Source: Ferrovibrio terrae (GTDB lineage: Bacteria > Pseudomonadota > Alphaproteobacteria > Ferrovibrionales > Ferrovibrionaceae). Taken from it: DNA of 64,000 nucleotides. This document shows positions 1,993 through 2,404 of the stretch, one piece after another; within the stretch, counting starts at the first letter, position 1; each line of letters opens with the position of its first letter. Location: contig NZ_CP041636.1 in the NCBI RefSeq assembly GCF_007197755.1, positions 1,338,001-1,402,000 of the forward strand, in the 5' to 3' direction. The notes below the pieces were generated by a model. It was not told the origin of the DNA and ran no database searches. It saw nothing but the letters and a program-made list of their open reading frames with translations. The position numbers and the translations under genes were made by a program.

Positions 1993-2020
1993 GTGTAGGG
2001 TCCGGGCCCTGCATCGCCAT

Positions 2021-2049
2021 TTGCGACAGGCCCCCGCATGTGCTATAAT
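2021..2049 (+). promoter_or_regulatory. Sigma-70-type promoter upstream of the repeat array
   Basis: TTGCGA (2021-2026) and TATAAT (2044-2049) are separated by exactly 17 bases, with a TG one base upstream of the -10 hexamer (extended -10). Transcription would begin near 2056 and run into the repeat array and towards amtB. It could give a long amtB leader, a small RNA, or the message for the doubtful small reading frame at 2168. Confidence 0.55.
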
Positions 2050-2167
2050 TCCCATATTCGGAACATTTGTCGTATGCGCTGGCGCGCGTGTTGGCGCGGC
2101 GTTTGACCAAGTGGCGCGTTGTCGGACATCGTTCAGCAGGAAAATCAAAGGCTTGAGGTGAAAACCG

Positions 2168-2404
2168 ATGGCTGGAGCGGGATTGAACGGGACGAAACAG
2201 GACGAAACAGGACGAAACGGGACGGAACGGGACGGAACTGGCTCTAACTGGCCCAAACTGGACGGAACTGGCTGCCAACCGGCCGCCAACTGGCTCCCTC
2301 CCGGAATAGAGGCGGCTAAAAAAACACCAGATTGGCCACATTCGCCTAAAAACTGGTCACGCTCCCGCCCGGCTGCGGGCGGAATAGCCAAGCTATTGGG
2401 CTGA
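2168..2404 (+). CDS. Doubtful small reading frame over the repeat array
   Basis: A 78-codon frame starts at an ATG with a good GAGGTG ribosome-binding site 7 bases upstream, and a sigma-70-like promoter lies about 120 bases before it. The first half is encoded by the 10-bp tandem repeat and gives a low-complexity Gly/Thr/Asn/Asp-rich peptide with no known family. The repeat unit is not a multiple of three, which argues that selection acts on DNA or RNA and not on protein. It is listed because signals for expression exist, but it may not be a gene. Confidence 0.2.
   Translation: MAGAGLNGTKQDETGRNGTERDGTGSNWPKLDGTGCQPAANWLPPGIEAAKKTPDWPHSPKNWSRSRPAAGGIAKLLG
2181..2290 (+). repeat. 10-bp phased tandem repeat array upstream of amtB
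   Basis: About eleven consecutive units of exactly 10 bp fit the pattern GGACGRAACN. The first five are nearly identical (GGACGAAACA, then GGACGGAACG types), and later units decay while keeping the GG and the AAC in register. No unit gains or loses a base until the last two. A 10-bp period puts each GG..AAC on nearly the same face of the helix. The array lies about 165-275 bases upstream of the sigma-54 promoter of amtB. Confidence 0.8.

Follow-up and report, generated by a model that had tools for sequence, protein, structure and literature searches.

The phased array upstream of amtB in Ferrovibrio terrae forms the repeat tail of a dispersed, clade-specific intergenic element

The 10-bp phased array upstream of amtB is not tied to that gene. 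It forms the repeat tail of an element that belongs to a dispersed, intergenic and clade-specific family. At one orthologous locus the repeated word can change between species while the 10-bp period is kept. Our best reading of the arrays, with a probability of roughly 40%, is that they may be rows of short direct-repeat half-sites read on DNA by a cooperative oligomer.

The window is the whole stretch of 64,000 nucleotides that was analysed. The element and its parts lie in it as follows:

1994..2311, + strand: whole element, about 320 bp, ends approximate; the segment missing in G001 and G002 (blastn/MAFFT against the amtB loci of G001, G002 and G005)
2021..2049, + strand: sigma-70-like promoter TTGCGA-17-TATAAT with TG before the -10, element-type TGCTATAATTCCCAT; the same motif occurs in most paralogous elements
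2061..2072, no strand assigned: degenerate palindrome GAACATTTGTCG, which reads GAACANNTGTTC in paralogues, where transcription is expected to start (paralogue alignment)
2119..2182, + strand: conserved leader block (TTGGACATCGT..GGAAAATCAANGGCTTG...), a diverged copy with the small hairpin lost (covariance/profile model R1 match, paralogue alignments)
2179..2293, + strand: 10-bp phased array, 11 AACNGG cores with 8 steps of 10 bp and then 2 of 11 bp (TRF, self-match, pattern search)

The array at the amtB site gave the strongest lag-10 self-match in the 64-kb window (75 matching positions in 100, where none of 61 Markov-shuffled windows exceeded 50) and was also detected by TRF. The pattern AACNGG x3 had 7 matches in the window versus 0 in shuffles. 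The array that the first-pass annotation had placed at 2181-2290 is thus present there, well above chance. Its AAC cores span 2186-2290 (starts 2186, 2196 ... 2266; steps 10,10,10,10,10,10,10,10,11,11), and the exact 10-bp period described for eleven units holds for nine, the last two steps being 11 bp each. The unit GGACGRAACN proposed for all eleven was too narrow: GGACGRAAC matches only 6 of the 11, and the common core is GG-N4(or 5)-AAC-N. The B-DNA turn is 10.5 bp. Because an exact 10.0-bp step drifts by about 17 degrees per unit, GG and AAC can share one face of the helix, as had been suggested, over a few units but not along the whole array, barring overtwisting or wrapping of the DNA. 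The array does lie between two promoters, the sigma-70-like site at 2021-2049 and a sigma-54 site at 2454-2468. A coding reading of the LLDIV..-array ORFs is tempting, since with a period prime to 3 all frames yield one and the same peptide. It was rejected by indels, missing starts and TAA-containing units: leader indels occur in several paralogues, and the TAAC found in 21% of G002 units introduces stop codons into the frames. The earlier statement that the period is not coding-driven is supported.

The element at the amtB site is built in the order promoter, degenerate palindrome, conserved leader and array as the tail. The window copy retains diverged versions of promoter, leader and array, and model R1 matched it at 2119-2214 with an E value of 1e-12 (covariance/profile search). 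The paralogous elements of G000 and G002 have in common CTTG...TGCTAATATTCCTAT (sigma-70-like) and the palindrome GAACANNTGTTC where the start site is expected; a GCATA...TATGC hairpin is often present, followed by a 65-nt leader (CTGTTGGACATCGTGGATAGGAAAATCAATG-CTTGGCA...TGCCAAG...) with the array after it. Some arrays are preceded by just a short leader (GTTNTTGGACATCGTGAAT) and a TATATGTTCTCAT-like site, and others by neither. The pattern ATTCCNA..GAACANNNGTTC was found in three genomes of the genus only, with 0 matches in reversed controls. A model R1 match in G018, whose sequence was read, is without an array. Between imuA and a dapA-like gene in G001 (L180, contig C30), only promoter, palindrome and hairpin are left, and leader and array are gone; both are retained at the same locus in G002 (L149) and in F. 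terrae (L121).

The arrays are dispersed over the chromosome. The GGNNNNAACNGGNNNNAACNGG pattern, searched over the whole F. terrae chromosome, gave 64 matches that fall on ten array loci, with one marginal two-unit match besides (reversed control, 0). A generic search for AAC every 10 bp revealed CGAAC-N5 as a second word in this genome, with at least 16 loci on the chromosome, all of 10-bp period (CGAA x5 search: 137 matches, 0 reversed). In the congener G002, the three-unit AACNGG pattern had 77 matches in about 25 arrays, and AACGA arrays occur besides. AACGA-N5 arrays are found in G001, G002, G005 and G008, and the word GGATCGAAC is carried by G005 and G008. Each carrier genome thus has one to three words out of AACNGG, CGAAC-N5, AACGA-N5 and GGATCGAAC; AAC as their common core was set in part by the search design. 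Array length is usually 8-12 units. The chain search accepted steps of 10-12 and 20-22 bp only and ended a chain at any other break. Among 385 sampled alphaproteobacterial genomes, AACNGG x4 occurred only in F. terrae, G008 and the sister-genus genome G013, and in the genomes searched the family is limited to the genus of F. terrae plus one array in a sister genus. Five species bear arrays, whereas none were detected in G003, G004, G006, G007 and G009. Our literature searches found no description of the family.

Further repeats were seen near the arrays. Another array of about 20-21 bp per unit (GACCTGACTCAGCACCGAATG) lies 3' or 5' of the 10-bp one at L227, L219 and L278 (G001) and at L268 (F. 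terrae). Runs of GCGATA-like units (GGCGATAAGCCGCGATACGC) stand directly before CGAAC arrays at L277, L276 and L221 (G008) and at L265 (F. terrae); they are possibly another word of the family. In IMG/VR, contigs L282, L285, L290, L313, L324 and L333 carry AACGGG x4 in 10-bp steps and, after it, CACGGAGGACACGGAG repeats; the sites are nearly identical from contig to contig, and 10-bp phased intergenic arrays may be wider than this genus. A virus origin was rejected: the IMG/VR matches with AACNGG x4 or CGAAC x5, some of which were read, look like unrelated arrays or simple repeats.

The amtB locus was compared among relatives whose AmtB proteins are 95% (G001) and 91-93% (G002) identical to that of F. 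terrae. Conservation of the array upstream of amtB, which the first-pass annotation had proposed as a check, was not seen. The site is empty in both genomes, which lack 1994-2311 and have about 21-32 bp in its place, and in G005 the place is taken by another 10-bp array, AACGA-N5. The sigma-54 site TGGCACG-N4-TTGT (2454-2468 in F. terrae) is retained in 7 of 7 genomes checked, with or without the array. A nitrogen-regulatory element specific to amtB between the sigma-70 and sigma-54 promoters is therefore very improbable: the same arrays stand at many unrelated genes (about ten loci in F. terrae and two dozen in G002), and the sigma-54 promoter is intact at the empty sites. Its one argument is position, about 160 bp upstream of the -24 site. 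The first-pass annotation had also said that the same array at many unrelated loci would point to a neutral microsatellite. Such loci were found in F. terrae and G002, but this explanation fits poorly, since the spacers turn over and the core and period stay.

Units and loci were compared for what is kept and what drifts. In chains built on AAC alone, GG beside AAC was kept in 99-100% of 66 F. terrae and 148 G002 AACNGG units. The four spacer positions of AACNGG arrays hold 0.1-0.9 bit versus about 2 bits in the core, which does not fit a simple neutral microsatellite of near-identical units with no privileged positions. All steps in the CGAAC arrays of F. terrae (80 of 80) are 10 or 20 bp. 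In orthologous arrays beside genes of 85-95% identity, the spacers are non-collinear unit by unit, with core and step unchanged. When loci were matched across species by neighbouring genes and grouped by eye, the words themselves differed: trxB has CGAAC in F. terrae and AACGA in G001 and G005; cmk has CGAAC in F. terrae, AACNGG in G002 and AACGA in G001; a GST locus has CGAAC in F. terrae and GGATCGAAC in G005/G008; uppP likewise carries different words in different species. On the sense strand of the arrays T is depleted (1.6-13% versus about 18% in flanks).

The words also differ in their genomic context. Divergent intergenes are avoided by AACNGG and favoured by CGAAC/AACGA (2 of 31 versus 11 of 18 ortholog groups; Fisher p 6e-5), with gene contexts taken from a purpose-written codon-usage ORF caller and orthologs grouped by eye. 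AACNGG groups lie in convergent intergenes in 14 of 31 cases, and many AACNGG copies are at most about 30 bp from a stop codon. A host-gene 3' UTR element was rejected, as codirectional contexts are balanced (14 ++, 11 --). At L120 (F. terrae), L165, L171 and L176 the array enters the 3' end of an ORF, and the point where the ORF stops differs between species.

Several known identities were tried and rejected. The alphaproteobacterial LexA (SOS) box is GAAC-N7-GAAC, the form present at the lexA gene of F. terrae (upstream GAACCTCATTAGAAC), whereas the palindrome of the element is GAAC-N4-GTTC. An excess of C over G, as in Rho sites, is true of CGAAC and AACGA and false for AACNGG. Intrinsic curvature is not shared, AACNGG and CGAAC being curved and AACGA straighter than shuffles in a wedge model. 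G-quadruplexes of the GGGNATC type do not fit the period of 10 and the lack of regular G-runs in the CGAAC and AACGA words.

In the DNA-level reading, the selected property would be identical short half-sites spaced one helical turn apart. A putative oligomer would bind adjacent direct repeats in a cooperative manner. ParR acts in this way on the 10-11-bp repeats of parC on plasmids, and by analogy a DNA-binding oligomer would be the simplest reader. Its preferred word might drift between species, leading to genome-wide rewriting of the spacers, and its binding near the element's own promoter or near gene borders could insulate or repress local transcription. Three findings count against such a reader: the exact 10.0-bp step loses phase with 10.5-bp B-DNA along the whole array, T depletion on the sense strand is not needed by a double-strand reader, and slippage by itself also keeps a period. 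The restricted steps of the chain search and its part in setting the AAC core weigh against it too. A broader version is quite improbable: chromosome-wide multivalent arrays with one site per turn, whose recognition word evolves with a putative trans-acting reader and which use one set of words at gene starts and another at gene ends, as an analogue of plasmid centromere arrays or of the nucleation sites of a nucleoid-organising protein.

The T-poor, weakly folded sense strand is better explained by an RNA function. The element could be a small RNA gene, whose promoter-driven transcript joins a conserved leader to an unstructured U-poor tail, a sponge to which an RNA-binding protein would attach many times over, or it could be the leader of a downstream gene. 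About 24 elements have the sigma-70-like promoter, palindrome and leader before the array in the same orientation, the short hairpin has a compensatory variant in L161 (CTTGCGCATATTCGCAAG), and in 3 of 4 words the sense array folds weakly (-0.08 to -0.23 versus -0.37 kcal/mol/nt in flanks), although composition alone predicts weak folding. Scanning five paralogous loci gave no Rfam match (Rfam 15, E up to 1), and RNAalifold yielded only a 4-bp helix. Promoter or leader is missing from several elements, the hairpin is lost in the window copy, and on single-stranded RNA it is hard to see what an exact 10-nt step would mean. We consider an RNA role unlikely, yet it and oligomer binding, both suggested by the first-pass annotation, stay among the candidates.

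A strong rival to the DNA reader, though still somewhat unlikely, is a dispersed repeat, selfish or neutral, comparable to STAR or GGGNATC repeats. It would be spread by recombination or a mobilising enzyme, grow by slippage and be homogenised by gene conversion, with no host function. Presence is patchy, the amtB site is empty in two close relatives, copy numbers are very different between congeners, and the convergent intergenes where AACNGG copies often lie are tolerant ones. Against this, core and exact step are conserved although the spacers turn over heavily, several species have the same loci filled, with words replaced and not lost, and no terminal repeats or target-site duplication were found at the one empty site examined (amtB).

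The DNA-level reading is preferred. Dispersed intergenic repeats are common and their function is rarely testable. Here evolution has separated a constant part (the core every 10 bp) from a free part (spacers and species-specific word), and sister species offer filled, empty and re-worded versions of one site. If a reader protein exists, it could be searched for directly with two words from one genome.

Three known systems were compared with the family. Proteins of the ParR type show cooperative binding to direct repeats of 10, 11 or 20 bp, and in ParR-parC of R1, pB171 and pSK41 tandem 10-11-bp repeats beside a promoter are read by a ribbon-helix-helix oligomer, at one plasmid locus beside parM/parR (PMC9426499, PMC5016525). 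The family likewise has arrays of direct repeats in the 10-20-bp range with an adjoining promoter, but in dozens of chromosomal copies, and no par genes (parM/parR) were recognised by eye beside the fetched arrays. GGGNATC repeats of Xanthomonas and Nostoc are dispersed intergenic arrays near ORF ends, made of a 7-bp G4-forming unit with four units preferred (PMC4692102). Our arrays are also many, short, tandem, intergenic and near ORF ends, but have a 10-bp unit, usually 8-12 units and two words without regular G-runs. STAR elements of Staphylococcus are intergenic interspersed direct repeats of unknown function and species-dependent copy number, with a constant motif and variable spacers; the 14-bp motif T(G/A/T)TGTTG(G/T)GGCCC(C/A) recurs at least 40 bp apart and at different loci in each species (PMC3532100). 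The family shares the dispersed intergenic direct repeats, constant motif, variable spacers and varying copy number, but falls outside the STAR definition: its 10-bp unit runs head to tail in one-turn steps, it has a promoter-leader module, and several loci are common to species with changed words. On this comparison the family is best read as a dispersed intergenic direct-repeat element of the kind known from STAR or GGGNATC.
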